Shown here: positions 14,759 through 48,699 of the stretch, piece by piece | Layout: every line of letters begins with the position of its first letter | How positions within the stretch are numbered: the first letter of the stretch is position 1 | Source: Bryobacterales bacterium | Lineage (GTDB): Bacteria > Acidobacteriota > Terriglobia > Bryobacterales > Bryobacteraceae | Direction: 5' to 3' | Assembly (NCBI GenBank): GCA_027452065.1 | Contig: DAIDHC010000144.1 | Coordinates: forward strand, 1-64,000 | DNA: 64,000 nucleotides | Translations under genes and position numbers: made by a program | Notes under the pieces: model-generated | What the model saw: only the letters and a program-made list of their open reading frames with translations | Databases searched by the model: none | Told to the model about the DNA's origin: nothing

Positions 14759-14803
14759 CTCTACAACTCATTGACGTGAACGGCCCCAAAACGTGCAGGC
14801 CGG

Positions 14804-14832
14804 TTGGCCGCTACGTCGCCGGGCGCTATCCT
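14804..14832 (+). promoter_or_regulatory. Candidate sigma-70 promoter of the thiolase gene
   Basis: TTGGCC (14804-14809), a 17-base spacer and TATCCT (14827-14832). The last base of the -10 box is only 8 bases before the ATG at 14841, so the transcript would be leaderless or nearly so. This is consistent with the absence of a ribosome-binding site in front of that ATG. Confidence 0.35.
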
Positions 14833-14840
14833 GATTGTAT

Positions 14841-16228: not shown

Positions 16229-16364
16229 CGTCCCGCTCCCGCGCCGGCCCGCCATCCGGTTCGCCCTCGTAATGCGTCACAAACGCCGGGCAGCGGCCTG
16301 TTTCCTCGGCTTTCCTTCTGCTCCCGTTTGCGCGACAATGCGAATGGTGCGGGACGTTTCTAAA

Positions 16365-24860: not shown

Positions 24861-25496
24861 CTATGGTTGTAGGTGAATGATTCCACGCTGGATCGCGGCC
24901 GTCGCGGCCTGCGTCCGGTCCTCCACGCCGAGCTTGCTGAGAATGCTCTTCACGTGGTTCTTCACCGTGTACTCGGCGATATTCAGCGTATAGCCGATCT
25001 GCTTATTGCTCAGCCCGTCGACGATCAGTTTCAATACGTCGAGTTCCCGGACACTGAGGTCGGGGCGGGGAAGTTGGTTCGCCAGGGCGGCCGCCACAAA
25101 CGACGGCAGGTATCGCTGGCCGGAATGCACGGCGCGAATCGCCCGCAGCAGATCGTCGTGCAGCACGTCTTTGGTCAGATACGACTGAACCCCGGCCAGC
25201 AGCGCGCGGCGGATGTCCTCATCGCCGGAAAACGTGCTGATGGCGACGATTTTTGCGTGGGGAAACTCCCGGCGTATGGCGCCGGCCGCCTCGATTCCCG
25301 TGAGCACCGGCATCCGGACGTCGAGCAGCGTCACGTCAGGCTGGTGGGCGCGGTGGAGTTCCACGGCCTGCTGCCCGTTGGTGGCCTCGGCAATCACCGT
25401 CATGTCGGGCTGGGCATTTACGATGGCTCCGATGCCGACGCGGGCAATGAGGTGATCCTCGGCGATCAGGATGCGGATCGGCTGGCCGGAGCTCAT
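24861..25496 (-). CDS. NarL/LuxR-family response regulator
   Basis: DNA-binding response regulator, 211 residues. The receiver domain has acidic pocket residues AEDH at 12-15, phosphoacceptor Asp59 in VTLLDVRMP and Lys109 in YLTKDV. A LuxR-type HTH lies at about 140-205 (LSVRELDVLKLIVDGLSNKQ, TVKNHVKSILSKLGVEDR). Its ATG overlaps the stop of the preceding propeller kinase by 4 bases (ATGA), so the two are a cognate pair. The RND efflux operon lies 170 bases downstream and is the natural regulatory target, as is often the case for such pairs. Confidence 0.95.
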   Translation of the reverse strand: MSSGQPIRILIAEDHLIARVGIGAIVNAQPDMTVIAEATNGQQAVELHRAHQPDVTLLDVRMPVLTGIEAAGAIRREFPHAKIVAISTFSGDEDIRRALLAGVQSYLTKDVLHDDLLRAIRAVHSGQRYLPSFVAAALANQLPRPDLSVRELDVLKLIVDGLSNKQIGYTLNIAEYTVKNHVKSILSKLGVEDRTQAATAAIQRGIIHLQP

Positions 25497-28444
25497 GACA
25501 AAGGAACGCTTACTTCAATGTGGGTGCCGAAGCCGGGTTTGCTCGACAGTTGCAGTTCGCCGCCCAGGCGCGCGGCGCGCTCCCGCATGCCCAGAAGGCC
25601 GAAATGCCCGTCCAGAGCCGAAAATACGCCGGACGGCTCGAAACCGCTGCCATCATCCTCCACGCGCAACAGGAGGGAACGCGGCTCCATCTGAAGCCGG
25701 ATGGAGATGTTCCGCGCCCCGGAGTGTTTCAAGGCGTTGGTAACCGCTTCCTGCGCGATGCGCATCAGGTGCTGCTCAACGTCCTCCGGCAGCTTTTGGC
25801 TCTCTCCGGCCACGTCGAGACGCACGGTGGTGGGCGAACCGGCCGTCCATTGCCGCGCCGCCTGTGCCAGCGCCGCCGGCAAGTCACGTTGTTCGAGCGC
25901 CGACGCCCGCAGATCCATCACCGACCGGCGCGCCTCGGTCAGGCTGTGGCGGGCCATTTTGCGCGCCAGATCCAGATTCCGCCGCGCCGAGGCCAGATCC
26001 GATTGCATCGCCATCGCAATAGCGTCCAGAAGGTTCGAAATGCCCACAAACCCCTGTGCCAAAGTGTCGTGAACCTCGCGCGCCAGCCGCACCCGCTCCT
26101 CCAGCACCAGCGAAAACCGGCCCCGTATCTGGCGCAGGCGAAGCTGATAGATCCCGTACATGGCCGCCAGAGCTGCGGCCGCGCAGAGCCAGAGAAAACT
26201 GGCTTTTTCGTAGAAATGGGGCAGAACGGCGAAGGAAAACGAAGTCTCCGTTGAGACTCCGCCCGGCAGGCTCGCCTCCACCAGGAAGCGGTAATTCCCG
26301 TGCGGCAGACTGTTGTAGTTGATCACCCGCCGGTTCACGGCACGCACCCAATCGTGGTCCAGGCCGTCCAGCCTGTAGTCGTAGTGCACGCGCTCGGGAG
26401 CCGTCAGATGGATGCCGGTGTAGCGGAACTGGATCCGCCCGGCCCCCGGCGGCAGCTCGGCCGGACGCGTGAAGTCGACCTGGCGGCCATCGGCGCTCAC
26501 GTCCACCAGATGCACGATGGGCGCCGGCTCCGGACGCTTCGCCCCTCCCGGCCCGATGACGGCGAGGCCGCGCGAGGTGGGAAACCATAAGCGCCCGTCG
26601 CTCGATCGCGTGCCGCCGCCCCCGGCCGGATACCCCGGCGCGCACTGAGCGCTGCGCAGCCCGTCGTCCGGACCGTAGCTCACCGGCGTCAACGCGCGCA
26701 GCCGTCCGCCGGCAAAAGCCGCCAGCTCGGCCTTCGATACGCGGCATATGCCCCGCGTCGTGCTCAGCCACAGCGAGCCCCGCCCGTCGTCCTCGATATG
26801 CGACACGTTGTCCGACAACAGCCCGTCCCGTGCCGTAAATCGCGAAAATACGCCATCGCGCAGCCGTGCGAGCCCGCCGCCGAACGTGCCCACCCAGAGC
26901 GCTCCCTCCGGGTCCGGATACAGCGACCGGATCTGGTCGCTGCCGAGCCCATCGGCCGTTGTTAGCAACGTGGCGCGGCCGTCCCGGATTCGCCACAAAC
27001 CCTGGCCGTAGGTTCCCGCCCAGACGGTTCCCGGTCCACCCTCGCTCAGCACAACGGCTGCATTGTTGAGCAGCGCGCCCCCTGGCACCACCTGAGTCCA
27101 CCGCCCTCCCTCCAGCATCTGAACGCCGCCCGGTGAGGCCGTCCACAGCCGCCCCTGCCGGTCCTCGAGCGCGTCGAAGACAATCGGCCTGCCCAGCCCG
27201 TCTGGAACGCTGATCTTCGTGAAGCGCCCATGGCGGAGAACCCCTAAGCCGCCGCGCGTAGCCAGCAGCAGCTCCCCTTTCCGCGTCTCACGAATCGAGA
27301 AGATTTCGTTCGAGGGCAGCCCGTTGGCCTCCGACAGCACTCGATAGGCCCCGGGACGGAAGTCCACCAGTCCGCTGTCGTGGTAGCCCACCCAGATGTG
27401 GCCTTCGCGGTCTTGGTGTACCGCCAGCGGCTGGTCGCTCGGCAGTCCCTCCGCCCGCCCATACATCGTGAACCGTGCGTCGCGGAATCGGTTCAATCCG
27501 CCGTTCATCCCCACCCACAGATTGCCCTCGCGATCCTCGAGAAGGCACCGTACCCAGTCCCGGTCGTGCTCGCCGTCCAGGATCGGAGCGGTAAATCGGC
27601 CGTGTTCAAACCGGCTCAGCCCGGCGTTGGTTCCCGCCCAAAGATTGCCGTCGCGGTCCTGGCCAAGCGCGCGAACCAGGTCGTCCGGAAGCCCGTCGCG
27701 CGTCGTGTACAGGCGCTGGGCCCCCGACGGCGAGCGGGACAGCAGTCCTTTGCTGCCGGCGATCCACAGCGTATCGCTACGATCGGCAAACATCGTGAGG
27801 ATGATGTCCCCGGCCAGGCTCGGAGAACCCGGTACTGCGACAAATCGTCCGCCACTCCGCTTCAGGAGCCCGCCGTATCCCGCCACCCAAAGAACGTGGT
27901 GGCTGTCCTCGGCCAGAGCCCGCACCGCCTCCAGCGGACGAAGCTGGGAGAGCGGATAGTTGACGAACTTTCCGTCACGGAAGCGGCTCAGCAGAACGCC
28001 CGCAGCGATCCAGAGCGATCCGTCCGAGGTTTGGCAGAGCGCGGTGACGACATTGTCGGCAAGACCGTCGCGGGTTGTGTAGGTGACGAACCGGCCGTCG
28101 CGATAAAGCGTCAGTCCGTTCGAGGTGCCGATCCAGAGACCCCCGCCGCGCGCGGCCAGCAGCGCCGTGATCGAGTTGGTGGGAAGGCCGCCGGGCTGGC
28201 GCGTGAAAGTGACAAACTCGTAGCCGTCAAAGCGCGCCAGTCCTTCGTCGGTACCCAGCCAGAGAAAGCCGTCCGCCGTCTGAGCCAGCGCGCGAATCGT
28301 GTCCTGGGGCAGTCCCTGCTGCTGTGTCCACACCGTCCGCGTGTATTGGGTGAGGGACTTTCCCGGATCGAGAGCGAGCATCGGGACGCCGAAGGCCACG
28401 ACGGCGGCCGCTAGCGAAACAATTCGACGCGGCGCGGTAAACAT
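25493..28444 (-). CDS. Propeller sensor histidine kinase (Reg_prop/Y_Y_Y/HisKA_3)
   Basis: One-piece sensor kinase, 983 residues. After a signal segment, about 700 residues form two-component-regulator propeller repeats of roughly 40-45 residues, with recurring patterns such as LAQTADGFLWLGTDEGLARF and FEDRDGNLWVGT-like units. A Y_Y_Y domain precedes one membrane helix (ASFLWLCAAAALAAMYGIYQ). The cytoplasmic part has a HisKA_3 dimerisation domain with His792 in AREVHDTLAQGF and a HATPase domain ending in GFGTHIEVSVP. Unlike hybrid kinases of Bacteroides it has no receiver or HTH; a separate NarL-type regulator overlaps its end. The periplasmic propeller probably senses an extracellular ligand, often a glycan in related proteins. 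Confidence 0.93.
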   Translation of the reverse strand: MFTAPRRIVSLAAAVVAFGVPMLALDPGKSLTQYTRTVWTQQQGLPQDTIRALAQTADGFLWLGTDEGLARFDGYEFVTFTRQPGGLPTNSITALLAARGGGLWIGTSNGLTLYRDGRFVTYTTRDGLADNVVTALCQTSDGSLWIAAGVLLSRFRDGKFVNYPLSQLRPLEAVRALAEDSHHVLWVAGYGGLLKRSGGRFVAVPGSPSLAGDIILTMFADRSDTLWIAGSKGLLSRSPSGAQRLYTTRDGLPDDLVRALGQDRDGNLWAGTNAGLSRFEHGRFTAPILDGEHDRDWVRCLLEDREGNLWVGMNGGLNRFRDARFTMYGRAEGLPSDQPLAVHQDREGHIWVGYHDSGLVDFRPGAYRVLSEANGLPSNEIFSIRETRKGELLLATRGGLGVLRHGRFTKISVPDGLGRPIVFDALEDRQGRLWTASPGGVQMLEGGRWTQVVPGGALLNNAAVVLSEGGPGTVWAGTYGQGLWRIRDGRATLLTTADGLGSDQIRSLYPDPEGALWVGTFGGGLARLRDGVFSRFTARDGLLSDNVSHIEDDGRGSLWLSTTRGICRVSKAELAAFAGGRLRALTPVSYGPDDGLRSAQCAPGYPAGGGGTRSSDGRLWFPTSRGLAVIGPGGAKRPEPAPIVHLVDVSADGRQVDFTRPAELPPGAGRIQFRYTGIHLTAPERVHYDYRLDGLDHDWVRAVNRRVINYNSLPHGNYRFLVEASLPGGVSTETSFSFAVLPHFYEKASFLWLCAAAALAAMYGIYQLRLRQIRGRFSLVLEERVRLAREVHDTLAQGFVGISNLLDAIAMAMQSDLASARRNLDLARKMARHSLTEARRSVMDLRASALEQRDLPAALAQAARQWTAGSPTTVRLDVAGESQKLPEDVEQHLMRIAQEAVTNALKHSGARNISIRLQMEPRSLLLRVEDDGSGFEPSGVFSALDGHFGLLGMRERAARLGGELQLSSKPGFGTHIEVSVPLS

Positions 28445-31756: not shown

Positions 31757-34690
31757 CTATTTCAATGCGTCAATCCGCCGCGCCGCATCTTCATAGAGCG
31801 CGTAGGCTGCCGCTGTCGGCCGGCGGTCGGCGCTTTCCACGACGCCCAGCACCGCGGTCAGATCGCGCTCGGCTGCGGCGCAGACGCGCAGGCTCTGCGC
31901 ATCGCCCGGCCGATGCTTGATCGCCTCGCATTCGCGCATCTTCTCGGAGGCCTTCAGTCCCAGCGATAACTGTTCGTTCAAGTCCGCCGCCGACGCGTGG
32001 GAGCGCGGATCCATCCGCACCGTCAGCGGCTGGGAGTACGTCACGCCATTCACCGTCAGGCGCACGTCGTAGGTGCCCGCCAGCACCAGAGGCCCTCCGC
32101 CAAATCCCGAAAATTCGGCCTCTTCGTCGTCGGATTGGCCCGGCGGCGGGTAACGCAGATCCCACACGAAGCGATTCATGCCCGCCCGCGCCGTGAGTCC
32201 TGCCGGCGCCGGCCGCCAGATCGCGGCGATCGGCATCGGGCGCTCCGGCGGCGCAGCTTTCCGCTCACTCGAGAAATGCCTCACCAGCTTGCCCGTGGCG
32301 TCGTAGATCTCCAGCTTCACTCCTCCCGCCGGCGCCGTTTTCAGATAGTAATCAATCAGCGCTCCACTCGGCGGGTTCTTTGCCTGCGGCATCTCCGGGG
32401 GCAGGGGCGTGCCGGGAAAGCGTTCCGGGTTCAGGCGAACCGCCGCCGAAGGCGAGTACAGCAGCGCCGGCGCGGAGGCGTTATCCGGCTCGGCCTGCCT
32501 CAGGGCGCTGATGTCGTCCAGAACCCAGAATGCGCGGCCGTGCGTGGCGATGGCAATGTCGCCGGAATGGATCGCCAGGTCACGCACCGATACCACCGGC
32601 AGGTTGAGCTGCAGCGGCTGCCAGTGATCGCCGTCATCAAACGATACCGCCACTCCCTTCTCCGTGCCCACGAACAGCAGTCCCCGCCGCACCGAATCCT
32701 CGCGAACCGCATTCAGAAACGCCGGTGCGGCAAGGCCTTCGGCAATCAGCGTCCAGCTCTTTCCTGAATCGCGCGTCCGGTACAGATAAGGACGATAATC
32801 GTCCAGACGATGCCGGTCAATGGCCGCGTAGGCCACCGCGGCATCGAAGTGCGACGCTTCGATCATGGTGACTTTGCTCCAGGGTGTCAGCCCCGGCGGC
32901 GTCACGTTTTGCCAGGTCTTTCCCCCGTCATGCGTCACATGGATGAGCCCGCTGTCGCTACCGGTCCAGATCTCGCCGGCCTCGAGCGGTGACGGAGCGA
33001 TGGTGTAGATCACGCCGTAGCCCCTCTGGCGTGCGTTGTCGATCGTGAGCGGTGCCGCGGCCGCCGCATCCTTGCTCGTCTTCCGCTCGTCGCCCGTCAG
33101 GTCCGGGCTGATCTCCTTCCAACTCAACCCTCCGTCGTTGGAGCGCAGCAGGCACTGAGCGCCGAAATACAAAGCGTTGGGCTCGGCCGGCGAAAAGACC
33201 AGCGGCGAAGTCCACGTGAAACGGTATTTGCGCTGCGCGATCTCCGTTCCAAACGAAAACGCCGGCCAGGGTGAAATGTTGTGCGCCTGCGAGGTGCGGC
33301 GGTCGATGCGGACCAGGCCGCCGTACGTGTTGCCGGCATATACGATGTTCGGGTCGCGCGGGTCGGGCGCTATGTAACCGCTCTCTCCACCGCCGGCCGT
33401 AAACCAGTCTCTTTCGTTGATTTCGTTGTGATCGGTCCGCACCGGAATTCCCACTGCACCGCTGTCCTGCTGCGAGCCATAAAGGTTGTAGGGGAATTGA
33501 GTGTCGGTGACGACGTGGTAGAACTGCCCTGTCGGCTGGTTGTACCAGCTTGACCACGTCCGCCCCCGATTCAGGCTGATCGTCACGCCCTGATCGGTGC
33601 CCAGTACCATGCGCTCCGGGTTCATGGGGTCGATCCAAAGCTGGTGATAATCGTCGCCGCCTGGTGCGCCGCGCAGCACATCCCACGTCTTGCCCGCGTC
33701 GGTGGAGCGCATCAGCGCCACGTTCGGCGCGTAAACCACATCCGGATTGGCGGGGTCGGCCGTGATCCCGGAAAAGTACCAGGCGCGGCTGGTGATTCGC
33801 GGATCCGCTCCCGCCAGCGTCCATGTGCCGCCACCGTCGTCGGATCGGTACACTCCAGCCGGCTTGGCGTCAATGAGCGCATAAACACGCGAGCCCTTGG
33901 CGGTGGCGACTCCGGCGCGGCCCCAATCGCCGGCCGGCAGGCCATTGCCCGAAATCTGGCTCCACGTGTCTCCCCCGTCCGCGGATTTGTAAAGCCCGCT
34001 GCCCGGCCCCTCCGCCGGCGGATACATGCTCCACGGCGTGCGCCGCGCCCGCCACAACGTCGCGTAGAGGATACGGGAATTGTCCGGCGCCATCGCGATG
34101 TCCGCCGCCCCGACGTCCGGCCCGCGGTCCAGCACCTTCGTCCAGGATTTGCCCCCATCGCGGCTCCGGTACACGCCCCGCTCCTCGTTCGGCCCGTATG
34201 CGTGGCCCAGCACGGCGGCATAAACCACGTCGGCGTTCGCCGGGTCCACGACGATCCGGCTGATCTGGCCCGAGTCCCGCAGGCCAACGTTGCTCCAGGT
34301 CTGCCCGCCGTCATCCGATTTGTACATCCCGTCGCCAAAGCCGATGTCGGATCGTATATCCGCCTCGCCCGAGCCCGCATAAATTACATTCGGCTTCGAC
34401 GGCGCCACGGCGATGGCTCCGATCGAGGCAATATCCTCGGCGTCAAACACCGGAGACCATACCACCCCTGCATCCGTGGTCTTCCACACGCCGCCTCCCA
34501 CGGCGCCGAAGTAAAACGTCCTTCCATCCCCCGGTACCCCGCTCACTGCAATGGCCCGGCCGCCCCGGAATGGACCGATCAGTCTCCACGATAGTCCGTT
34601 GAACAACTGCGGTGGAAGGGCGGCGGATTGGGCGGCCGTCGCCAGGACCAACAGCGCGGCAAAATGCGAGGCGGCTTGGATCTGCTTCAT
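31757..34690 (-). CDS. Secreted sortilin/BNR-repeat propeller protein (copy 1)
   Basis: Exported beta-propeller protein of about 977 residues, often annotated as glycosyl hydrolase or VPS10-like. I start it at the ATG at 34690 because a signal peptide begins there and AAGGAG stands upstream. At least eight Asp-box motifs (S/T-x-D-x-G-x-T/S-W) are readable: SDDGGQTW, SRDGGKSW, SADGGDTW, SDDGGGTW, STDAGKTW, SNDGGLSW, THDGGKTW, TRDSGKSW. A C-terminal domain of about 250 residues (MNRFVWDLRYPPPGQ) follows. It is clearly paralogous to the gene at 38010-41054. No catalytic residues are obvious. It is divergent from an S9 peptidase gene, which hints at a joint extracellular role. Confidence 0.85.
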   Translation of the reverse strand: MKQIQAASHFAALLVLATAAQSAALPPQLFNGLSWRLIGPFRGGRAIAVSGVPGDGRTFYFGAVGGGVWKTTDAGVVWSPVFDAEDIASIGAIAVAPSKPNVIYAGSGEADIRSDIGFGDGMYKSDDGGQTWSNVGLRDSGQISRIVVDPANADVVYAAVLGHAYGPNEERGVYRSRDGGKSWTKVLDRGPDVGAADIAMAPDNSRILYATLWRARRTPWSMYPPAEGPGSGLYKSADGGDTWSQISGNGLPAGDWGRAGVATAKGSRVYALIDAKPAGVYRSDDGGGTWTLAGADPRITSRAWYFSGITADPANPDVVYAPNVALMRSTDAGKTWDVLRGAPGGDDYHQLWIDPMNPERMVLGTDQGVTISLNRGRTWSSWYNQPTGQFYHVVTDTQFPYNLYGSQQDSGAVGIPVRTDHNEINERDWFTAGGGESGYIAPDPRDPNIVYAGNTYGGLVRIDRRTSQAHNISPWPAFSFGTEIAQRKYRFTWTSPLVFSPAEPNALYFGAQCLLRSNDGGLSWKEISPDLTGDERKTSKDAAAAAPLTIDNARQRGYGVIYTIAPSPLEAGEIWTGSDSGLIHVTHDGGKTWQNVTPPGLTPWSKVTMIEASHFDAAVAYAAIDRHRLDDYRPYLYRTRDSGKSWTLIAEGLAAPAFLNAVREDSVRRGLLFVGTEKGVAVSFDDGDHWQPLQLNLPVVSVRDLAIHSGDIAIATHGRAFWVLDDISALRQAEPDNASAPALLYSPSAAVRLNPERFPGTPLPPEMPQAKNPPSGALIDYYLKTAPAGGVKLEIYDATGKLVRHFSSERKAAPPERPMPIAAIWRPAPAGLTARAGMNRFVWDLRYPPPGQSDDEEAEFSGFGGGPLVLAGTYDVRLTVNGVTYSQPLTVRMDPRSHASAADLNEQLSLGLKASEKMRECEAIKHRPGDAQSLRVCAAAERDLTAVLGVVESADRRPTAAAYALYEDAARRIDALK

Positions 34691-34775
34691 GGGACTCCTT
34701 CCATTCATGGCGCGGCGGGCGGGGACGCGAAAACCAGCTTTCCACGATAGCGCATTTCTGCCCGGCCTCGGGCCG

Positions 34776-34787
34776 TATAATGTCGCA
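34776..34787 (+). promoter_or_regulatory. Consensus -10 box of a probably leaderless S9 peptidase mRNA
   Basis: TATAAT at 34776-34781 ends six bases before the ATG at 34788, so transcription would start at or next to the start codon. No ribosome site is present. The matching -35 region is weak. Confidence 0.5.
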
Positions 34788-36788
34788 ATGCTGAAGTTCA
34801 CCGCATTCCTGTTGTCGACCCTCGCCTGCCTGAGTGCCGGCGCGCGCACTCCGACCATTGTCGAGTCGCTCAGCATGAAGCAACCCATGTCGGCTCGCAT
34901 CTCCCCCGACGGCAAGTACGTCGCCTACGTGCTTCAGGAAACCGACTGGGAGGATAACGAGTTCGTGCCCCGCGTCTGGATCGCCTCGGTCGAGACCGGG
35001 AAGAGCTTCGCACTGACCGGCGGCCGGAAAGCGAGCACCAGCCCGAAATGGTCGCCGGACTCCAGGCGCATCGCCTTCCTGTCGGACCGCGACGGGAAGA
35101 ATCAGATCTTTCTGATCTCACCCACGGGCGGCGAGGCATCCCGCTTGACCGATGTCGAAGGCGGAGTCACGGCCTTCGAATGGTCGCCCGGCGGCACGGT
35201 GATCGCATACACGGCGCACGAGCCGGAAACGAAGTCGGAGAAGGATCGCAAGGACACCTACGGCGAGTTTTTCATCGTGAATCACGACTACCAGCGGCTG
35301 CATTTGTGGAGCGTGAAAGCGCCCGAAGAGCTTCCGGCCGATCCCAAGCAGCGGCCGAAACCCGAGGAATTGACCACTGGCGACGAGTTCAGCGTGGGCA
35401 GTTTCGCGTGGTCGCCAAACGGCCGCAGCATCGCTTTCGACGCCGCGCGCGATCCCGACCTCAGCTCCCAGGGAACATCCCGCATCTATGTCCTCGACAT
35501 CGCCGACAAGCACGTCAGAATGCTCGTCGACGCCGGCGGCCCGCATGAGGGGCCCCGCTGGTCTCCCGACGGCCGCCAAATTGCCTACATGACCGCAAAC
35601 GGCGCGCGCTATTACTATTACGCCAATCGCCGCATCGCCATCGTTCCCGCCGAGGGCGGTACTCCGCGGGTTGTGACGCAAAAGTTCGACGAGGACCCGG
35701 CGCTGATCGACTGGGGTCCGGACGGCCTCTACTTCACCGGACTTCACGAAACATCCGCCCACTTGTTCCGTCTCAATCCCGATTCGCTCCAGATCGATCG
35801 CCTCACCACCCCGGACAGCTTCGTCCTCGGCGACGCCTCCTTCACCTCCGATCACTCGGCAATGGCCGGCATCGGCGCCATGCCAAATCAATTCGCCGAG
35901 GTCTGTGTGTCGCCGGTCAAGTCGTTCTCGCCGCACCCGCTCACCAGCCTCGCCGCCCAGTGGAAGGACTTCACACTCACCAGGCGCGAAGTCGTCCACT
36001 GGAAGTCCGCCGACGGCACCCCTATCCAGGGCGTGCTGGTGAAACCTGCCGATTATGTTCCCGGCCGCCGCTATCCGCTACTGGTCGTCATCCACGGCGG
36101 CCCCACCGGCGTCGACCGCCCTGTTCCCAGGGCCGACCGCTACTATCCGATCGAGATGTTCGCCGCCAAGGGCGCGCTGGTTCTGCAGCCGAACTATCGC
36201 GGCTCGGCCGGCTACGGGGAAGCTTTCCGCTCCCTCAACGTCCGCAATCTCGGCCTCGGCGATTATCAGGACGTCATCTCCGGCGTTGACTCGCTCGTGG
36301 CCAGCGGCATCGTGGATCGCGACCGCGTCGGGGCCATGGGATGGAGCGAAGGCGGCTACATCTCCGCCTTCATCACGACCTACAGCGACCGGTTTCGCGC
36401 CGTCTCTGCCGGCGCCGGTATCTCCGACTGGATGACCTACTACGTCAACACCGACATCCACCCTTTCACACGCCAATACCTTCTTGCCACTCCCTGGAGC
36501 GACCCCGACATCTACCGGAAGACTTCGCCCATCACATACGTCAATCAAGCGAAGACTCCCACCCTGATTCAACACGGCGATCAGGACAAGCGGGTTCCTC
36601 CGCCCGATTCCTTCGAGCTCTATCAGGCGCTCAGGGACCGCGGCGTACCCGTGAAGCTGATTCTCTACAAAGGCTTCGGCCATCCCATCACCAAGCCCAA
36701 GCAGCAGCGCGCCGTCATGCAGCACAACTACGACTGGTTCAGTCAATACATCTGGGGCGAACAGGTCGTCTCCGAAGCCGGGAATTAG
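34788..36788 (+). CDS. S9-family prolyl oligopeptidase-like peptidase
   Basis: Secreted serine peptidase, 666 residues from the ATG at 34788, where a signal peptide starts (MLKFTAFLLSTLACLSAG). An N-terminal beta-propeller of about 370 residues has WD/PD40-like repeats (ISPDGKYVAYVL, KWSPDSRRIAFLSDRDGK). The C-terminal alpha/beta hydrolase has the catalytic triad Ser520 (GWSEGG), Asp600 (HGDQDKRVPP) and His632 (GFGHPI). It resembles acyl-aminoacyl or dipeptidyl peptidases and should trim peptides outside the cytoplasm. It is divergent from sortilin-like copy 1 across 97 bases. The family is certain; the exact cleavage preference is not. Confidence 0.94.
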   Translation: MLKFTAFLLSTLACLSAGARTPTIVESLSMKQPMSARISPDGKYVAYVLQETDWEDNEFVPRVWIASVETGKSFALTGGRKASTSPKWSPDSRRIAFLSDRDGKNQIFLISPTGGEASRLTDVEGGVTAFEWSPGGTVIAYTAHEPETKSEKDRKDTYGEFFIVNHDYQRLHLWSVKAPEELPADPKQRPKPEELTTGDEFSVGSFAWSPNGRSIAFDAARDPDLSSQGTSRIYVLDIADKHVRMLVDAGGPHEGPRWSPDGRQIAYMTANGARYYYYANRRIAIVPAEGGTPRVVTQKFDEDPALIDWGPDGLYFTGLHETSAHLFRLNPDSLQIDRLTTPDSFVLGDASFTSDHSAMAGIGAMPNQFAEVCVSPVKSFSPHPLTSLAAQWKDFTLTRREVVHWKSADGTPIQGVLVKPADYVPGRRYPLLVVIHGGPTGVDRPVPRADRYYPIEMFAAKGALVLQPNYRGSAGYGEAFRSLNVRNLGLGDYQDVISGVDSLVASGIVDRDRVGAMGWSEGGYISAFITTYSDRFRAVSAGAGISDWMTYYVNTDIHPFTRQYLLATPWSDPDIYRKTSPITYVNQAKTPTLIQHGDQDKRVPPPDSFELYQALRDRGVPVKLILYKGFGHPITKPKQQRAVMQHNYDWFSQYIWGEQVVSEAGN

Positions 36789-36816
36789 TCAAAGCGCAGC
36801 CCGGGGCGAGCCGCAC

Positions 36817-37971
36817 TCACCCGCTCACGCTCCGCCGCTTTTCCCAACCGGGCCGAAAGAGCGGCAGAAAATTCTCCTGCCTGTAAGGGTGCCGGGCAAT
36901 CTCGTCCAGGTTCAAATCGATGCCCAGGCCCGGCCGCTCGGGTATCTCGATGTAACCATCCACAACTTCGACCGGATTCGTCACAATGCTCTTTTCCCAC
37001 GGCTCGTTGAACTCGTCGAAAATCTCGTGAATGAAAAAGTTCGGCGCCGATGCGTTGAGCTGCACACACGCCGCCGAGCACACCGGCCCCTGCGCGCTAT
37101 GGGGCGCGATCATTCCCAGGTGCGCGTCCACCATGTCGCAGATCTTCCGCGTTGCGAAAAGCCCGCCCAGGTTCAGCGGCTCCGGTTGCAGGATCATCAC
37201 CGCGTCGTGCTTGAGAAGCTCGGCGAACTCCTGTTTGGTCGAGAAGCTCTCGCCCGTCGCCACCGGCACCGGGCTTCGTCTGGCGACCTCCACCAGTCCC
37301 GCGACGTTCGTATGCGGAACCGGCTCCTCAAACCACGCCGGCCGCAGCGGCGCCATGGCGTTGGCAAACTCGATCGCCGCCGCCGGATGAAAACGGCAGT
37401 GGCCCTCTATCAGCAGATCCACCGCGTCTCCCACCGCCGATCGCACCGCGCGGATGATATCCAGGCTCAGGTCGAATTCATACCGTGGCAGGGTGCGCCA
37501 GTTGCTCCCGAACGGATCGAACTTCAACGCCGTATAACCTCGTGCGGCGACCGCGGCGGCCTTGGAAGCGAAATCTTCCGGCGTCCGCGGACCCCGGTAC
37601 CATCCGTTCGCATACGCCCGCAGCTTTCCGTGACAACGCCCGCCCCACAGGTTATATACCGGCTGATTGCACGCCTTCCCGATAATGTCCCAACAGGCGA
37701 TCTCCACCGCCGCCACGGCGCACATCTGAATCTGGCTGCCCCACGAATACACGTCCCGGATCATACGCTGGCTGATGGTCTCCACCTGAAACGGATCCAT
37801 GCCCAGGATCAGCGGCTTGAGCTCGTGGATGGCGCACTCCACGGTTTTCGCGAATGCGTTCAGCGTCCCCTCGCCGATCCCATGTATGCCCTCGTCGGTA
37901 TTGACCCGCACAAACAGCCAGTTCTTCCACGGATTGCCCGCGATGTAGGTATCAATGCTGGTGATTTTCAT
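36817..37971 (-). CDS. Enolase-superfamily acid-sugar dehydratase-like protein
   Basis: Mandelate racemase/muconate lactonising family member, 384 residues. Metal ligands are Glu189, Glu215 (FEEPVP) and Glu241 (GES). Lys150 and Asp152 sit in LKFDPF. His191 (EGHCRF) and His290 (APHSAQGP) match in position the two catalytic histidines of galactonate-type dehydratases, so dehydration of a sugar acid is the best guess. Racemase activity is less likely, as there is no KxK. It starts 38 bases after the stop of sortilin-like copy 2 on the same strand. The sugar acid is unknown. Confidence 0.88.
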   Translation of the reverse strand: MKITSIDTYIAGNPWKNWLFVRVNTDEGIHGIGEGTLNAFAKTVECAIHELKPLILGMDPFQVETISQRMIRDVYSWGSQIQMCAVAAVEIACWDIIGKACNQPVYNLWGGRCHGKLRAYANGWYRGPRTPEDFASKAAAVAARGYTALKFDPFGSNWRTLPRYEFDLSLDIIRAVRSAVGDAVDLLIEGHCRFHPAAAIEFANAMAPLRPAWFEEPVPHTNVAGLVEVARRSPVPVATGESFSTKQEFAELLKHDAVMILQPEPLNLGGLFATRKICDMVDAHLGMIAPHSAQGPVCSAACVQLNASAPNFFIHEIFDEFNEPWEKSIVTNPVEVVDGYIEIPERPGLGIDLNLDEIARHPYRQENFLPLFRPGWEKRRSVSG

Positions 37972-38009
37972 GACGCGATCTTTTCAGTATCGCCGCTCGC
38001 GGCCCCTGC

Positions 38010-41000
38010 TCAGGGAATCCGCCCCCGCAGCCCGTTCCACGCGCTCAGCAGCCGGTCGAGCTCGCTCTTCAGCGATGCGGCGGCGGCCTGCACCTGCCTG
38101 GTAGGCGCGGCGTCGGCGCCATTCACGATTTCCAGCACCGCCGCCAGTTCGCTGTTCAGGCGCATCAGGCCCGGCGCCCCGCCGGCCCGCCTCCCTCCGC
38201 CCGCGCCTTCGAGCGCCGCCAACTGCGTCTCGATCGCCCTCGCATCCGCCGCCTTCCCCGGCAGGCGCTTCCTCGCCGCGCGCACTTCCTCGAGCGCCTG
38301 AACGTCTCGCCCCATCCACTCGCAGATCTCTGACGCCAGCGTCGCCTGAAGGCGCAGGTCCGCCGCCGGAGTTTCCACCCGAGGGTCCATCTTCACCGTC
38401 AACGCGCGGCTGTACGTTTTGCCGTCGACCATGAGCTTCACCGTGTACCGGCCCGGCATTGCCGCCGGCCCCTGCGGATATCGTGGTGTATCTCCGGCAA
38501 TCGCCGATATCGGATACTCGGTCCGCAACGCCCGCGGTTCCGGCCCGTGCAGGTCCCACACGAACCGATGCATTCCCGCCGATGCCGCCAGTGGCAAACT
38601 CCGGCGCACCCAGTACAAAGGCGCGTTCATCTCCTGGCCCAGCGCCTTCATGTCCGGCTCCGGTTTGTCGGTGCTTTCAAAGCGCCGGATGACATGCCCC
38701 TGGGTATCGGAAATCTCCAGTGCCACCGCTCCCCCGGCCGCCCGCGGAAGCCAGTAATCAATCACCGCGCCGTCGGGCGGATTTTGTCCCGCTGGTTCCT
38801 CCGGCGGCAAGGGAGTGTCCGTGTTCTGGCTCCGGCGAACCCGATAGGCGACTTCGGGCTCGAACAAAAACGCACCTCGCTCCGCCGCTGCCTCCGTCGC
38901 CTGCCTCAGCGGTGTAATGTCGTCGAGAATCCAGAAGCCGCGGCCATGCGTTCCCGCCACCAGGTCGTCTCCGTGAATGACAATGTCCCGCACCGAAGTC
39001 GGCGGCATGTTCAGCTTCAGCGGCAGCCACTGTTGGCCGTCATCGAACGACACGTAGGCCGCGCGCTCCGTGGCCGCGAACAACAATCCCCGCCGCGACG
39101 GATCCTCGCGCACCGCGTTCACCGGTTCGTCGTCCGGCAGTCCACTGGTGATCCGTTTCCACGTCTTGCCCCCGTCAACGGTCCGATAAATGTAGGGATG
39201 CAGGTCGTCCAGCCGGAAGCGGTTCACCGCGGCGTACGCCGTGCCGGCGTCGAAATGCGAGGCCTCAATCAGTGACACCTTGCTCCAAGCCGTCACTTCC
39301 GGCGGCGTCACGTCGCTCCAGTGCGCTCCCCCGTCAGTGGTCACGTGGATCAACCCGTCGTCAGTGCCCGCCCAGATCTTTTTCCCATCCAGAGGTGACG
39401 GCGCAATCGTGTAAATGACGCCTCGCCTGCGCCGGTCCCGCTTCGCAGCCTCATCCCGGAACACGCCCACCGGCGCCGGTACGTCCCAACGCTCGCGGCT
39501 CAGGTCCGGGCTGATGATGCTCCAGTGATGTCCTCCGTCGACGGTCTTGAAAAGCACATTACCCGCCAGGTAAAGCGTGTGCGGGTCGGTCGGGGAAAAC
39601 AACACCGGCGCCGTGCGGAGAAAACGGTACGCAGCGTCTGCCAGTACCACCGGACCGACATCCTGCACCATCCCCGTTGCCTCGTCATAGCGCGTTAGCT
39701 TGCCGCCGAAAACGACCCCCGGATGCAGCGGATCCGGCGCGACATACCCGTACTCCTCAACGCCCACCGGATGCCAGTCCCGGACCGTGATCTCGCCGGA
39801 ATCTCCCCGGCTGCGCACTGCCGCCGAGCCGCTCTCCTGCTGTCCTCCATAGACCCAGTAGGGAAACCGGTTGTCCGTGCTCACGTGATAGAACTGTGCC
39901 GTCGGCTGGTTGTACCATGAGCTCCACGTCTCGCCGCCGTTGACGCTGATCGTTGCTCCCTGGTCGCTCGCCAGGAGAATGATCCGCGGATTCCGCGGGT
40001 TGATCCAAATGGTGTGATAATCGTCCCCGCCGGGGGCTCCTTTGACCGCCGTGAACGTCATCCCGCCGTCGGTCGAACGGTAGGTGGACGTGTTCGCCAC
40101 GTAAACCACATCGGGATTCGTCGGATCCACGCGAACGCCGGCGAAGTCGTTGCCGCGGCCCCACAATCGCGTCTCCGCGTTCACCCGCTTCCATGTGCTG
40201 CCCGCGTCATCGGACCGGTACAACCCGCCGTCGCGCGCGCTCACCAGCGCATAGATCCGATTGCCGTCGCTCGGAGCCACGCCGATCCCGATGCGCCCCA
40301 GTCCCCGCTCGAATCCTGGCAGCCCGCCGCGAAGCTGCGTCCAGGTCGCTCCGCCGTCAGACGACCGGTACAGCCCGCTGCCTGCGCCCTGGTATTCCCC
40401 GTTCTCCCACGGACCCTGCCGCGCCTCCCACAACACCGCATAAACGATGTCCGGATTCTTCGGGTCGAAGGCCAGATCCACCGCTCCGGTATTCTCGCCG
40501 CGATAAAGAATTCGCGTCCAGGTCGCTCCTCCGTCGTTCGAGCGGAACACACCGCGCTCTTCATTCGGCCCGTAGGGGTGGCCCAGCACCGCCGCAAACA
40601 CCCTCCGGGCATCGTGCGGGTCCACCAGCAGCGCCGCAATCTGCTGGCCCTCCCGCAAGCCGAGGTGCTGCCACGTCCCTCCCGCATCGTCGGACCGGTA
40701 AATTCCATCGCCGACCGACAAGTCCGGCCGCTGTAGTCCCTCGCCGCTTCCCGCGTACACGACATCGGGCTTCGACGGCGCCACTGCCAACGCCCCGATC
40801 GATCCCGTCGGCTGCGCGTCGAACACCGGCTTCCACACGCGCCCGTAGTCCGTGGTCTTCCAAACCCCTCCATTCACCGCGCCGATGTAGAACACGTTCG
40901 GCTTACCCGGCACGCCCGCCGCCGCCACCGTGCGGCCTCCGCGGAACGGCCCGATCATGCGCCAGCGCATCCCGGAGTAGAGATCAGGCGACAGATCGCG

Positions 41001-41054
41001 AGGCAGAGCCGTGAAACTGGCGAAAAAAAATACGAGGGCGGTCAATCGGCGCAA
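38010..41054 (-). CDS. Secreted sortilin/BNR-repeat propeller protein (copy 2)
   Basis: Second propeller exoprotein, about 1014 residues. I place the start at the TTG at 41054, preceded at five bases by AGGAG and followed by a signal segment (RLTALVFFFASFTALP); a TTG at 41075 is the other option. The opening SGMRWRMIGPFRGGRTVAAA matches copy 1 (NGLSWRLIGPFRGGRAIAVS), and Asp-box motifs (SDDAGGTW, SNDGGATW, SSDGGATW, TVDGGHHW, TTDGGAHW) recur throughout. The C-terminal domain differs more, and adds a helical, Arg/Ala-rich end. The neighbours are an acid-sugar dehydratase-like gene downstream and a VWA protein upstream. Confidence 0.85.
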   Translation of the reverse strand: MRRLTALVFFFASFTALPRDLSPDLYSGMRWRMIGPFRGGRTVAAAGVPGKPNVFYIGAVNGGVWKTTDYGRVWKPVFDAQPTGSIGALAVAPSKPDVVYAGSGEGLQRPDLSVGDGIYRSDDAGGTWQHLGLREGQQIAALLVDPHDARRVFAAVLGHPYGPNEERGVFRSNDGGATWTRILYRGENTGAVDLAFDPKNPDIVYAVLWEARQGPWENGEYQGAGSGLYRSSDGGATWTQLRGGLPGFERGLGRIGIGVAPSDGNRIYALVSARDGGLYRSDDAGSTWKRVNAETRLWGRGNDFAGVRVDPTNPDVVYVANTSTYRSTDGGMTFTAVKGAPGGDDYHTIWINPRNPRIILLASDQGATISVNGGETWSSWYNQPTAQFYHVSTDNRFPYWVYGGQQESGSAAVRSRGDSGEITVRDWHPVGVEEYGYVAPDPLHPGVVFGGKLTRYDEATGMVQDVGPVVLADAAYRFLRTAPVLFSPTDPHTLYLAGNVLFKTVDGGHHWSIISPDLSRERWDVPAPVGVFRDEAAKRDRRRRGVIYTIAPSPLDGKKIWAGTDDGLIHVTTDGGAHWSDVTPPEVTAWSKVSLIEASHFDAGTAYAAVNRFRLDDLHPYIYRTVDGGKTWKRITSGLPDDEPVNAVREDPSRRGLLFAATERAAYVSFDDGQQWLPLKLNMPPTSVRDIVIHGDDLVAGTHGRGFWILDDITPLRQATEAAAERGAFLFEPEVAYRVRRSQNTDTPLPPEEPAGQNPPDGAVIDYWLPRAAGGAVALEISDTQGHVIRRFESTDKPEPDMKALGQEMNAPLYWVRRSLPLAASAGMHRFVWDLHGPEPRALRTEYPISAIAGDTPRYPQGPAAMPGRYTVKLMVDGKTYSRALTVKMDPRVETPAADLRLQATLASEICEWMGRDVQALEEVRAARKRLPGKAADARAIETQLAALEGAGGGRRAGGAPGLMRLNSELAAVLEIVNGADAAPTRQVQAAAASLKSELDRLLSAWNGLRGRIP

Positions 41055-41124: not shown

Positions 41125-42180
41125 TCAGCGGTAGTAGCCGTGCCGCGCTCTCACCACCACCGCACCCTCCCGCCGCGCCGCTTCCGCTGTCAGCCTCACT
41201 TTCAGCTCACAGTACGTGCCCGCGGGCCTCTCTTCCGAGGGCCGGAACCCGATGCTGTAGCGCGTCCGCAGCAGGTCGATCAACTCCGCCAGCCGCCAGC
41301 CGATGTCCTCTTTGTTGGCCTTCACCACCACACCGCCCGTTTCGTCGGCGTAATGGAAAACGTCCCCCGGCGGAAATTTCTTGCGTACCGGCGCCATCAT
41401 CGGATTCTTCGAATCCATCACCGTCATGAAGTTCGAGAGCGCGCTTCTGGCCAGCAGGCTGCACACCACCGAGCCCGTGCCGTCAAGTTCCCGCATGGCG
41501 TCGGCCTCGCTGTGCAACTGCCCGGCCGGCACGCTCTGGCCGTGTTCTCTCCTCGTACCCTCTGAGGGAACGTTTGGAACATTGTCGGTCAGCCACACGA
41601 TCACGCGCCGGTTGTTCGGCGGCGACGAACGCCCCAATTCAGCGGCCGCCTGAAACACGCCCTCGTTGAAGAACGCCGCCTCCGCGCTCTTCATCCGGCT
41701 GGCCGCGGCGATCGCCGCCGCCACACGCTTGTGGTCCCGCGTGAATCCGCTGACAAGCTTCGCCGACGCTGAATACACCATCACCGCTGCCTCGTCGGAG
41801 GGCTTCAGATGCTCCAGCGCCTTCAGCGCTCCCGAGGCCAGCGGCTTCAGCACCGGCCGCACGCTATCGGTCAGGTCAACCAGGAAAATGACCGACAGCG
41901 GCAGCGAGTTCTGGCTGAAATAGGTGATCTCCTGCGGCACCCCGTCTTCCAGAATGTCGAAGTCGCGCCGTTCCAAATGGTCCAGCGGACGCCCCGAGAC
42001 CAGCCCCGCCTCGGCCCCCTGTCCGCCCTTCTGCTTGCCCGCCGGCAGCACCTGCGCATCCACCATGACCAACTCGACCTGCGAGCGAAAATAGGCCTGC
42101 ACGTGCCCGGAGATCGGCGCCTGCGCCGCCGCCGCTACGCCCCACAGCCATACTGCCGCCGCTTTTCCCGCTCGATTCAC
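41125..42180 (-). CDS. VWFA-related acidobacterial-type protein
   Basis: Exported von Willebrand A-domain protein, 351 residues, of the type common in Acidobacteriota. A signal peptide (about 1-20) is followed by an N-terminal segment with LERRDFDILEDGVPQEITYF, characteristic of this group, and then the VWA fold. The metal-site motif reads DLTDS, with Thr in place of the first Ser of DxSxS. Such proteins probably mediate metal-dependent protein contacts; the partner is unknown. The start is a GTG at 42180 without a clear ribosome site. Confidence 0.85.
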   Translation of the reverse strand: MNRAGKAAAVWLWGVAAAAQAPISGHVQAYFRSQVELVMVDAQVLPAGKQKGGQGAEAGLVSGRPLDHLERRDFDILEDGVPQEITYFSQNSLPLSVIFLVDLTDSVRPVLKPLASGALKALEHLKPSDEAAVMVYSASAKLVSGFTRDHKRVAAAIAAASRMKSAEAAFFNEGVFQAAAELGRSSPPNNRRVIVWLTDNVPNVPSEGTRREHGQSVPAGQLHSEADAMRELDGTGSVVCSLLARSALSNFMTVMDSKNPMMAPVRKKFPPGDVFHYADETGGVVVKANKEDIGWRLAELIDLLRTRYSIGFRPSEERPAGTYCELKVRLTAEAARREGAVVVRARHGYYR

Positions 42181-42233: not shown

Positions 42234-42737
42234 TTAATACCGGTATTCGGCCGGCGTGATGCCCTTCAAACGCAGATACACGATGCACTGGCCCCGGTGA
42301 TGCGTCGTGTGATCCATGGCGAAATAAATCACTCCCATCCCCGTCATCGTCCCATCCGGCGTCTTGTACGACTTCTCCAACGCCGCCGGCGTCGCCTTTT
42401 CTACCGCCTGAATGCTGTAGTCGAACGACTTCGTGAGAAGAGCGACGACCGTCGCCTTGTCGAAGTTCGCCGGCTTTGCAATTGTCGGCTTCCCTCCGCT
42501 CAGCAGCGACAGAAAATAACCGTTCGCCGTGGCAATGTGCGCCATCTGCTCGCCAAAGCTCATCTCGGCCGGATTCGGTTTGAAGTTGTACGCCTCCGCC
42601 GGCATCTGTTCGGCGATTGCCAGCGTGTATTCCTTCGACGTTTTCCAGTGTTTTGCCAGCTCCTCGGTGACGTCGGAAGCCAGCGCCGCGGGAACAGTCA
42701 TAAAGCACACCGCGGCCGCACAAGTGAGCATTCTCAT
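42234..42737 (-). CDS. Exported DinB-family protein
   Basis: DinB/YfiT-like four-helix protein, 167 residues from the ATG at 42737, chosen because AGGAG lies seven bases upstream. Metal-binding histidines typical of the fold are visible: H in EQMAHIA, and HTTHH in FAMDHTTHHRGQ. It begins with a signal peptide (MRMLTCAAAVCFMTVPAALA). This is unlike most DinB thiol-transferase homologues, which are cytoplasmic. Activity is unknown; thiol- or metal-dependent transfer is the family precedent. Confidence 0.85.
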   Translation of the reverse strand: MRMLTCAAAVCFMTVPAALASDVTEELAKHWKTSKEYTLAIAEQMPAEAYNFKPNPAEMSFGEQMAHIATANGYFLSLLSGGKPTIAKPANFDKATVVALLTKSFDYSIQAVEKATPAALEKSYKTPDGTMTGMGVIYFAMDHTTHHRGQCIVYLRLKGITPAEYRY

Positions 42738-42842
42738 TTTTCTTCTCCTGTTCGTCATTTGCGATCTTCAGGTTAAACGGAAATTTCGTGTTTGTCCAAC
42801 TCCGGGCCTATTTGTTAGCGTAGTAAGTTACTCCTTTTCTAT

Positions 42843-44211: not shown

Positions 44212-45510
44212 GTGAGCCCTCCGGCCGCTGTCCGGCGCGTCTATTATCTTGCCGCACACGGTGGCTACTCCGGCCAGTCCGTCCCATTGGGCGGGGGCGC
44301 GGCAGTCTGCGAAATGCTGCTCGAAGAGTGGCGCCGCACCCGCCCCTTCGACGTCCAACTGGTGAGCCCCGCCATCCTCGGTCCCCGCGCTCCCTCGGCC
44401 CGCGACCTCGTCTCTTTCGGCGAGCGCGAATACGCCCGCTTCTGCCGCGAGTTCTCCGCCGCCGCCACCGCCGAAGTCCTCCGCCACGACCCCGCCGGCG
44501 CCGTTGTCCTCGTCAATGACGTCTCCGAGGGCCCGGATTTTCCCCGTCTCGCCGCCGCCGGCTTCCCCATCGTCACCATTTACCACGTCGACGTCGTCGC
44601 CTACGTCGCCGCCATCTACGGCCGTTCGCTCCTCGCGCCCGAGACGCTCGCGCGCTGGTACCGCCGCCTCCGCGCGTCGCCGCTCTCCCGCGTCCTTCCC
44701 TCCATGGCTGCGCTCGTCTTCGAACAGCAGGAAAACAGCCTCCGCTTCTCTCGCGCCGCCGTCGTGCCCTCCGAGGCCATGCGCGGCATCATGGGCCGTT
44801 GCTACCCCGGCCTTCCCGACGGCCGCATCCAGGTCCTGCCCTGGGGAGTACCCGGCGAGGTTCCCCCGCCGTCCGAGACCGCGGCGGCGGCGCGTCTTCT
44901 CCGCGCCGAATTCGGCGTCCCCGACGATGCCCGCGTCCTCCTCACCCTGAGCCGCATCTCACCCGAAAAAGGCCAGGATCTCCTGCTCGAAGCTCTGATC
45001 GAATCCGAACGCCGCTCCCAAGGCCCCTCCCAACCGCTTTGGCTCTTCATCTGCGGCGAAGCCGCCTACATGCAAGGCCGCCGCTTCCTCGATCGCCTTC
45101 ACGCACTCGCCGCCCGTCTCCGGCGCACCCGTGTCGTCTTCCCCGGCTACGTCTCCGGCCTCCGCAAACACGCCTTCTTCGCTCTCGCCGATCTTTACGT
45201 TTTCCCCTCGCGCCACGAGAGTTACGGCTTGACTCTGATCGAGGCTCTCCGCGCCGGCTGTCCCGCTCTCTGTCTTGATCACCACGGTGCGCGCGCAGTT
45301 ATGCGTCCGGAGTTCGGACCCCTCGTGCCCATCGGGAGCCGTCGCGAAACCATCCGCGGCCTCCGCGACGCCCTCGCCTCGCTGCTGGCCCGCCCTGACG
45401 ACCGCCGCCGCATGGGCGAGGCTGCAAGCCTTTGGGCCCGCGGCCAGACCTTTTCCGCCGCCGCCTCTGCCCTCGCGCGTCTTCTCAACCGTTACGGCGC
45501 CGGCTCGTGA
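44212..45510 (+). CDS. GT4-family glycosyltransferase
   Basis: Retaining nucleotide-sugar glycosyltransferase of GT-B fold, 432 residues from the GTG at 44212, four bases after the ugd stop. Typical marks are LTLSRISPEKGQDLLLEAL and the E-x7-E motif in HESYGLTLIEALRAGCPALC. The N-terminal half has YYLAAHGGYSGQSVPLGGGA, a donor- or acceptor-side loop. Glucuronate transfer is suggested by coupling to ugd but not shown. Its 3' end overlaps the convergent DUF1080 gene by 19 bases. Confidence 0.9.
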   Translation: MSPPAAVRRVYYLAAHGGYSGQSVPLGGGAAVCEMLLEEWRRTRPFDVQLVSPAILGPRAPSARDLVSFGEREYARFCREFSAAATAEVLRHDPAGAVVLVNDVSEGPDFPRLAAAGFPIVTIYHVDVVAYVAAIYGRSLLAPETLARWYRRLRASPLSRVLPSMAALVFEQQENSLRFSRAAVVPSEAMRGIMGRCYPGLPDGRIQVLPWGVPGEVPPPSETAAAARLLRAEFGVPDDARVLLTLSRISPEKGQDLLLEALIESERRSQGPSQPLWLFICGEAAYMQGRRFLDRLHALAARLRRTRVVFPGYVSGLRKHAFFALADLYVFPSRHESYGLTLIEALRAGCPALCLDHHGARAVMRPEFGPLVPIGSRRETIRGLRDALASLLARPDDRRRMGEAASLWARGQTFSAAASALARLLNRYGAGS

Positions 45511-46313
45511 ATCTCGCGGATCCAGATATTGCGGAAACGCACCGGATGATCGTGATCCTGGAGCAGTAACGGCATCTTCTCGGCGTGCGGCCGATACGGC
45601 GGCCGGCCCATGTACGTCGTCGGTCCGGTCAAAACGCAGTTGTCCTGGATCAGCACCCCGTTGTGAAACACCGTTTCCGAGGCCGGCCGCAGAATCTTGC
45701 CGTCCGCCGAAAACCGCGGCCCGTGAAAAACGATATCGTAAATCTGCCACTCGCCCGGCGGCCGGCTGGCGTTCGCCAGGGGAGGGAACTGCGCGTAAAT
45801 CGCCCCCGCCTGCCCGTCGGCGTACGTCTTGCTGTTGTAGGAATCCAGCACCTGCAGCTCATACATCGACATCAGATACACGCCGCTGTTTCCGCGGTCC
45901 TGATCCTGGCCGTGCGGCGGATTCGGCGTCGCCCACTCCACGTGCAACTGGCAGTCGCCGAATGACTGCTTGGTCCGAATGTCGCCCTTGCCCGGCTCCG
46001 TCGCGAAATATCCGTCACGTACTTCCCAAGTAGGCGCTCCGCCGTGTGCCCCTTCCCACTGCGACAAATCCCCGCGTCCGAACAACACCACCGCGTCCGA
46101 CGGCGCAGTGCCGGCCTTGGCGTCGGTGCTTGCCGTCCCCGGCGTCACCATCACCGCCATGGGACGGCTCCGGTCGCTGACTTTCCATTTCGGGCTGACG
46201 TGTGTCGCATACGGTTGACCCACGTCCTGTGCCGCACCAACACCGCAAAAAGCCAACCATCCGGCCGCCGCCGCGCCCGCCACCCAACTCATTCCAGAAC
46301 GTTTTGTGAACAT
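45492..46313 (-). CDS. Secreted DUF1080 (3-keto-disaccharide hydrolase-like) protein
   Basis: Exported beta-jelly-roll protein, 273 residues from the ATG at 46313, with a signal segment (SWVAGAAAAGWLAFCGVGAAQ). The DUF1080 core is readable: VVLFGRGDLSQWEG, WEVRDGYFATEPGKGDIRTK, NSGVYLMSMYELQVLDSYN and RPPYRPHAEKMPLLLQDHDH. Members of this domain family hydrolyse 3-keto-glycosides or bind sugars. An upstream ATG at 46358 is less likely because it would precede the signal segment with charged residues. Its 3' end lies inside the convergent glycosyltransferase gene. Confidence 0.88.
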   Translation of the reverse strand: MFTKRSGMSWVAGAAAAGWLAFCGVGAAQDVGQPYATHVSPKWKVSDRSRPMAVMVTPGTASTDAKAGTAPSDAVVLFGRGDLSQWEGAHGGAPTWEVRDGYFATEPGKGDIRTKQSFGDCQLHVEWATPNPPHGQDQDRGNSGVYLMSMYELQVLDSYNSKTYADGQAGAIYAQFPPLANASRPPGEWQIYDIVFHGPRFSADGKILRPASETVFHNGVLIQDNCVLTGPTTYMGRPPYRPHAEKMPLLLQDHDHPVRFRNIWIREIHEPAP

Positions 46314-46375
46314 ATTGATTTTCTCGATCCTTGATCGCCTGGAGAATTGTATCAGCACCGGCCGTCTACCGGCGT

Positions 46376-48532: not shown

Positions 48533-48699
48533 CGGGCAGTGCGCGGCGCTCATTCCCGGCCGGATGCCGTCTCGGCCGATCCGTCGACCTCGGCCGGTGC
48601 GCATGCCGGACATCGCCGCGTCCCGGCTCCGCGCGCCATCTTCGAGCCTACCAGAGCCGCCTCGCCCGCCCCGCGCCCCGGCGCCGCCCGGAGGATGTG

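Follow-up and report, generated by a model that had tools for sequence, protein, structure and literature searches.

Paralogous Asp-box double propellers around an S9 peptidase gene in a Bryobacterales genome, with a predicted GH74-like fold and a candidate charged pocket

The analyzed window is the stretch of 64,000 nucleotides at positions 1 to 64,000 of contig DAIDHC010000144.1 (GenBank assembly GCA_027452065.1, Bryobacterales bacterium, Acidobacteriota). It contains two genes for secreted propeller proteins of the Sortilin/BNR type, herein referred to as PROP1 and PROP2, and between them the genes for an S9 peptidase and for an acid-sugar-dehydratase-like protein (Table 1). All four genes were found where a first-pass annotation, made from the letters of the window, had placed them. 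The PROP1 and S9 genes are divergent and separated by 97 bases. The genes for a DinB-like protein, a VWA protein, PROP2, and the dehydratase-like protein form a row on the minus strand, with gaps of 53, 70, and 38 bases, which converges on the S9 gene. Thus, the four genes are not one unit. The open reading frame (ORF) listed for PROP1, which extends to 34915, overlaps the start of the divergent S9 gene; the ATG at 34690 is the likely start of PROP1. PROP2 probably starts with the TTG at 41054, which has GGAG ahead of it. Signal peptides of the propellers and of the S9 protein were judged by eye. At this locus, the promoter and terminator scan gave site numbers close to those in shuffled sequences, with no clear excess, the Rfam search gave no match, and the tRNA search found none.

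Table 1. Genes, predicted domains, and conserved codons at the propeller locus (positions in the window).
Feature	Coordinates	Strand	Remarks
Reg_prop sensor histidine kinase	25493..28444	-	
PROP1 (propeller 1)	31757..34690	-	secreted tandem Asp-box propeller, 977 aa, 'GGGES' subfamily
Divergent gap, PROP1/S9 gene	34691..34787	.	97 bases
S9 peptidase	34788..36788	+	secreted, 666 aa, Ser/Asp/His motifs intact, genome-specific neighbour
Enolase-superfamily (MR/MLE) protein	36817..37971	-	acid-sugar-dehydratase-like, 384 aa, no signal peptide seen
PROP2 (propeller 2)	38010..41054	-	secreted tandem Asp-box propeller, 'VEEYG' subfamily, TTG start proposed
PROP2 C-terminal helices	38025..38366	-	model residues ~881-994
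PROP2 Ig-like beta sandwich	38367..38873	-	model residues ~712-880
PROP2 second seven-bladed propeller	38901..39911	-	model residues ~366-702, boundaries by eye
PROP2 first seven-bladed propeller	39912..40970	-	model residues ~13-365, boundaries by eye
E418 codon, start of second propeller	39753..39755	-	E or D in 82/83; PROP1 E436
D348 codon, top loop blade 7	39963..39965	-	D in 83/83; PROP1 D366
D329 codon, top loop blade 7	40020..40022	-	D in 82/83; PROP1 D347
E89 codon, top loop blade 2	40740..40742	-	E in 81/83 homologues; PROP1 E109
VWA protein	41125..42180	-	upstream of PROP2, same strand
DinB-like protein	42234..42758	-	adjoins PROP2 directly upstream in congeners

An alignment of 938 positions gives 51% identity between PROP1 and PROP2, and both match the Pfam families Sortilin-Vps10 and BNR. 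The common opening and the many Asp boxes noted in the first-pass annotation are present in both copies: the openings read NGLSWRLIGPFRGGR and SGMRWRMIGPFRGGR, and each protein contains 11 boxes, against means of 0.14 and 0.16 in shuffled sequences. The boxes sit between the third and fourth strands of the blades in the PROP2 model described below, and both proteins belong to the broad Asp-box beta-propeller family. In PMC2716378, Asp boxes are described as structural and facing away from active sites; therefore, their number is uninformative on ligand binding. The best profile match is 3b7f (YP_299179.1), an Asp-box seven-bladed propeller annotated as 'glycosyl hydrolase, BNR repeat' and uncharacterised. 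That paper gives it as a single propeller of 394 residues, with a function that is likewise unknown. The best NCBIfam match of both copies is NF045728 (F510_1955 family glycosylhydrolase, a model of 246 positions), yet the scores of 155 and 164 bits are below the curated cut-off of 175.

The two copies had been ascribed to duplication. They are paralogues, but the tree does not agree with a recent local event. PROP1 and PROP2 fall into separate groups with support of 100/100, which rules out local tandem duplication. PROP1 groups with the second copy of locus L025 and with two paralogues from its own genome (L081 and L083); the group of PROP2 takes in 40 further rows, drawn from several phyla. 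As read from the tree, the two are old subfamilies; the duplication is old and the distribution patchy. Of 60 candidate propellers, 45 went into alignment A1, and the other 15, which were near-relatives or fragments, were removed by hand; alignments A3 and A4 held 28 and 36 of these 45 sequences. A separate observation concerns L025, another acidobacterium, in which a PROP2-type and a PROP1-type gene stand in direct tandem (9962-16669).

Orthologues of PROP2, with 53-70% identity, were found in Acidobacteriota, Ignavibacteriota, Armatimonadota, Eremiobacterota/Vulcanimicrobiota, and Planctomycetota. In the order, 12 of the 41 genomes that were sampled have relatives of PROP2, and a single genome has as many as 22 match rows; close relatives of PROP1 were found in 41 of the 119 genomes sampled from the phylum. 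Proteins of this kind are thus common, and they are annotated as, for example, glycosyl hydrolase or sortilin; we found no test of such names. The family is uncharacterised in the open-access literature searched: no functional study of Sortilin/BNR exoproteins was found there, which is not the same as absence in print. In PMC9936825, a Sortilin-Vps10 match is given for a different, peptidase-like protein.

An AlphaFold2 model of PROP2 was built on the alignment of 45 relatives (predicted local distance difference test, pLDDT, 90.2; predicted template modelling score, pTM, 0.90). The predicted protein consists of two tandem seven-bladed propellers, followed by an Ig-like domain and then by a helical tail. 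Its whole-length matches in VIA are GH74 xyloglucanases, with Z of 28-31; mostly, ~590-610 residues are aligned with a root-mean-square deviation (rmsd) of 5-6 Å, within a span of residues 4-702. GH74 was also matched in Foldseek (1.8e-28) and picked up by the sequence profile search. About the same Z is reached by single WD40 propellers of seven blades, which cover one half of the model; thus, the likeness to GH74 is one of covered length. The GH74 xyloglucanases and OXG-RCBH (2cn2, 6p2k, and 1sqj; Z ~30) are likewise built of two tandem seven-bladed Asp-box propellers. PROP1 and PROP2 differ from them by the added Ig-like domain and helices, by an identity of ~14-22%, and by the absence of the mapped catalytic Asp. 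For the C-terminal third of PROP2, the best VIA match has Z of 8.1 and is Ig-like (PorU); FlgD and PorZ also match. No Foldseek match was found for the C-terminal domain at 0.001, and the helices gave no clear match. A sortilin-like receptor was considered on account of the Pfam Sortilin-Vps10 matches and rejected. Sortilin has ten blades, as opposed to 7+7 in the PROP2 model, and PROP1 and PROP2 contain only 3 and 1 cysteines, so the cysteine-rich 10CC domains are missing.

Conservation was analyzed over a set of 83 homologues, with identities as low as 27%, and a charge was called conserved when present in at least 85% of them; loop classes were assigned by hand from the strand list of the model. 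The top loops of the first propeller hold 10 conserved charges: R25, D63, E89, R93, H143, R151, R238, R284, D329, and D348. Further conserved charges are H331 at the start of a strand, R264 within a strand, and R16 ahead of the first blade. The bottom 1-2 loops of this propeller have no conserved charges, and the bottom 3-4 loops have only the structural Asp of the Asp boxes. Q390 and an acidic residue (E/D) at position 391 are each kept in 82 of the 83 homologues. An alignment of the two copies had been proposed as a way to find conserved pocket residues; in it, the charged top-face residues and the near-invariant positions are all kept in both proteins, with Asp at 391 in PROP1. On the modelled top face, a catalytic or binding pocket is likely.

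Neighbourhoods were also compared in three congeneric genomes. In all three, the gene for the dehydratase-like protein follows PROP2, in one case across a contig end. Two of them have both genes on one contig (L148 and L150); in the third (G191), the dehydratase gene lies beside a PROP2-like stretch at a contig end (L149), and most of PROP2 is on another contig (L159). Genes for DinB, UDP-glucose dehydrogenase, a glycosyltransferase, and a 3-keto-disaccharide hydrolase are found upstream of PROP2 in L148 and L159. PROP1 is located elsewhere than PROP2 in all three congeners, directly before the gene for a Reg_prop sensor kinase (L155, L156, and L158). In the window, genes for a GH13 amylase and an OYE protein lie between this kinase and PROP1. 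No full S9 gene was found beside the propellers in the congener loci. The sole S9 row above 20 bits from the hidden Markov model (HMM) search of these loci scores 63 bits and lies more than 7 kb from the dehydratase gene in L148. The best matches of the congeners to the S9 protein of the window have 28-32% identity; an S9 protein with 66% identity was found in another genus (L154). Since the PROP2-dehydratase and PROP1-kinase blocks are separate in the congeners, the window, alone among these genomes, joins two blocks, with the S9 gene at the junction. This comparison also shows how the gene order of a single genome can hint at a system that is not there.

Membership of the dehydratase-like protein in the enolase superfamily is clear. 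Its scores with the isofunctional models for galactonate and gluconate dehydratases are below the curated cut-offs (312.8 versus 750 and 263 versus 311 bits). The dehydratase and the sensor kinase are better leads to partners of the propellers than the S9 peptidase, and these links were seen within the genus, neither of them beyond it. Among wider relatives, Pfam families were tallied in 124 flanking ORFs. These were taken from 221 picked ORFs as the nearest on each side, with a gap below 2 kb and at least 160 aa, excluding the near-duplicate loci L013, L059, and L067. The picking of longest non-overlapping ORFs was crude and went wrong inside the S9 gene of the window. The families found were mainly epimerase/RmlD and polyA polymerase, which we read as synteny of related loci. 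S9 was found in 3 of the ORFs, a count that is not blind, since the S9 ORF of L035 was put in by hand.

For the two propellers, we propose with about even confidence that they are exported, GH74-shaped double propellers with a pocket of their own for an extracellular glycan, and that the S9 peptidase lies between them by chance. Both would be exported with a tandem seven-bladed scaffold like that of GH74, to which the Ig-like domain and then the helices are joined. On top of the first propeller, loops that carry conserved Arg, His, Asp, and Glu would line a charged pocket, and further conserved carboxylates would lie at the junction with the second. The most likely role of the proteins would be to hold a glycan outside the cell, perhaps one that carries charges, and probably to cleave it, by means of catalytic residues that would differ from those of GH74. 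The two copies are long diverged and probably unlike in substrate. In the genus, PROP2 stands beside the gene for a cytosolic acid-sugar dehydratase-like enzyme and PROP1 beside that for a sensor kinase; the S9 peptidase would be a chance neighbour.

Several points weigh against this proposal. The rmsd of 5-6 Å to GH74 leaves the angle between the predicted propellers undefined, and the meeting of the conserved residues in one pocket is a geometry that we infer from the model. Conserved charges are found at 10 of 108 top positions versus 0 of 44 bottom positions, a borderline difference (Fisher p = 0.064); thus, the pattern of charges on the top face is suggestive, not proven. Overall conservation of the top loops (0.61) is not above that of the strands (0.65). 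Finally, no relative of the dehydratase was found near 80 PROP2-type or 20 PROP1-type loci, and the acid-sugar link is therefore confined to the genus.

The closest matches in fold and in sequence profile would be explained if PROP1 and PROP2 were true GH74 xyloglucanases, which we consider extremely improbable. The structures 2cn2 and 2cn3 differ by an Asp to Ala change in the YARADIGG loop, and we take this Asp to be catalytic. The column to which it maps contains N, V, or T in the 45 aligned sequences (0/45 acidic), and no acid in the larger set either (0/83). GH74 membership was rejected on this column, and the identity to GH74 noted above also speaks against it. For the second GH74 Asp (D465 in OXG-RCBH), the second-propeller profile aligned only to the first propeller of GH74, and the loop in which an Asp would be expected is shorter there. 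The loss of the mapped Asp agrees in part with the first-pass annotation, in which the 'glycosyl hydrolase' label was said to have no visible catalytic support. This statement is too strong, however, because near-universal carboxylates and other conserved charges stand on the usual functional face. The same loss favours another explanation, which we regard as a serious possibility though a doubtful one: that the propellers are, as in the first-pass annotation, non-catalytic binding or scaffold proteins, which would keep glycans or peptides on the cell surface and use the charges for recognition only. It is consistent with the presence of non-enzymatic relatives, HCF136/Ycf48 and sortilin, in the profile search, and with C-terminal Ig-like and helical parts that could serve attachment. 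However, near-invariant carboxylates in several top loops across phyla exceed the needs of a loose binding face.

A working unit of the propellers with the S9 peptidase had also been suggested. The S9 protein itself is a member of peptidase family S9 (Pfam Peptidase_S9, 1.9e-53, 181.6 bits), with an alpha/beta-hydrolase domain and, as reported previously, an intact Ser-Asp-His triad (GWSEGG at 518, HGDQDKRV at 596, and GFGHPI at 629). As partners of this enzyme, the propellers would bind it or its substrates, in a relationship resembling that between dispase autolysis-inducing protein and dispase. That protein (5fzp and 6fhp) is, by its name, a precedent for a propeller acting on a peptidase. 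It is a distant Asp-box propeller match and differs in its chain of ~340 residues and weak similarity. A strong S9 domain was found within the 10 kb flanks of 9 of the 80 PROP2-type loci, with close neighbours in L022, L035, L052, and L076. The expectation is ~1.7 loci (215 S9 matches in 147.3 Mb of 31 genomes), which makes the excess about fivefold, with a Poisson p of 7e-5 that ignores shared descent and mixes two score thresholds. The expectation used ~1.17 Mb of flank, with sums made by hand. The 31 genomes were reached from 32 of the 80 loci; these 32 were chosen mostly for full flanks and take in every S9-bearing locus but L052. All 80 loci enter the observed count. Weak HMM rows (L030 and L075) and opposite-strand frames (L079 and L043) were not counted as S9, nor were the phmmer matches of L004, L065, L066, and L068 to the whole S9 protein, which the domain HMM missed. 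In contrast, S9 was found in the flanks of only 1 of the 20 PROP1-type loci and beside neither propeller in the three congeners. Gene orientations vary among loci. The order has 12 genomes with propellers in the sample; of their 69 match rows, only 4 are within 10 kb of an S9 gene, and two of these are the window's own pair. The genome of the window has another propeller and S9 pair on contig C58 (L081, 6999-9212 and 12441-15647), ~3 kb apart, which fits a partnership. Thus, co-occurrence of propellers and S9 peptidases in other genomes exceeds chance but is by no means regular, and the suggested working unit is not supported. S9 partnership is unlikely, and we give it very little credence.

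The proposal of glycan-cleaving propellers can be taken further, to a speculation that we think rather unlikely as a whole. The Sortilin/BNR exoproteins would be a glycosidase family of their own, GH74-shaped, with catalytic carboxylates on other blades (E89, D329, D348, and E/D418 across the cleft) and with an arginine cluster for carboxylated or otherwise charged glycans. PROP2 would feed the putatively co-expressed acid-sugar dehydratase, and PROP1 would make a signal for the kinase. Overall, the finding is an ordinary one, in which the charged pocket provides one testable lead: its conserved residues are a direct handle on whether Sortilin/BNR propellers are enzymes.

Several further genes were found in the window. 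The VWA gene placed between those for DinB and PROP2 carries the acidobacterial TIGR03436 domain and has no match in the congener loci L148 and L159. A protein with a 3-keto-disaccharide hydrolase domain is encoded at 45492-46358, near UDP-glucose dehydrogenase and glycosyltransferase genes, a sugar-handling setting that is kept in the congeners. Two ORFs of 745 aa (46379-48613 and 49913-52147) and one of 493 aa (55295-56773) have no Pfam match at 1e-8; a relative of the ORF at 46379-48613, with 37% identity, was found in congener locus L148.

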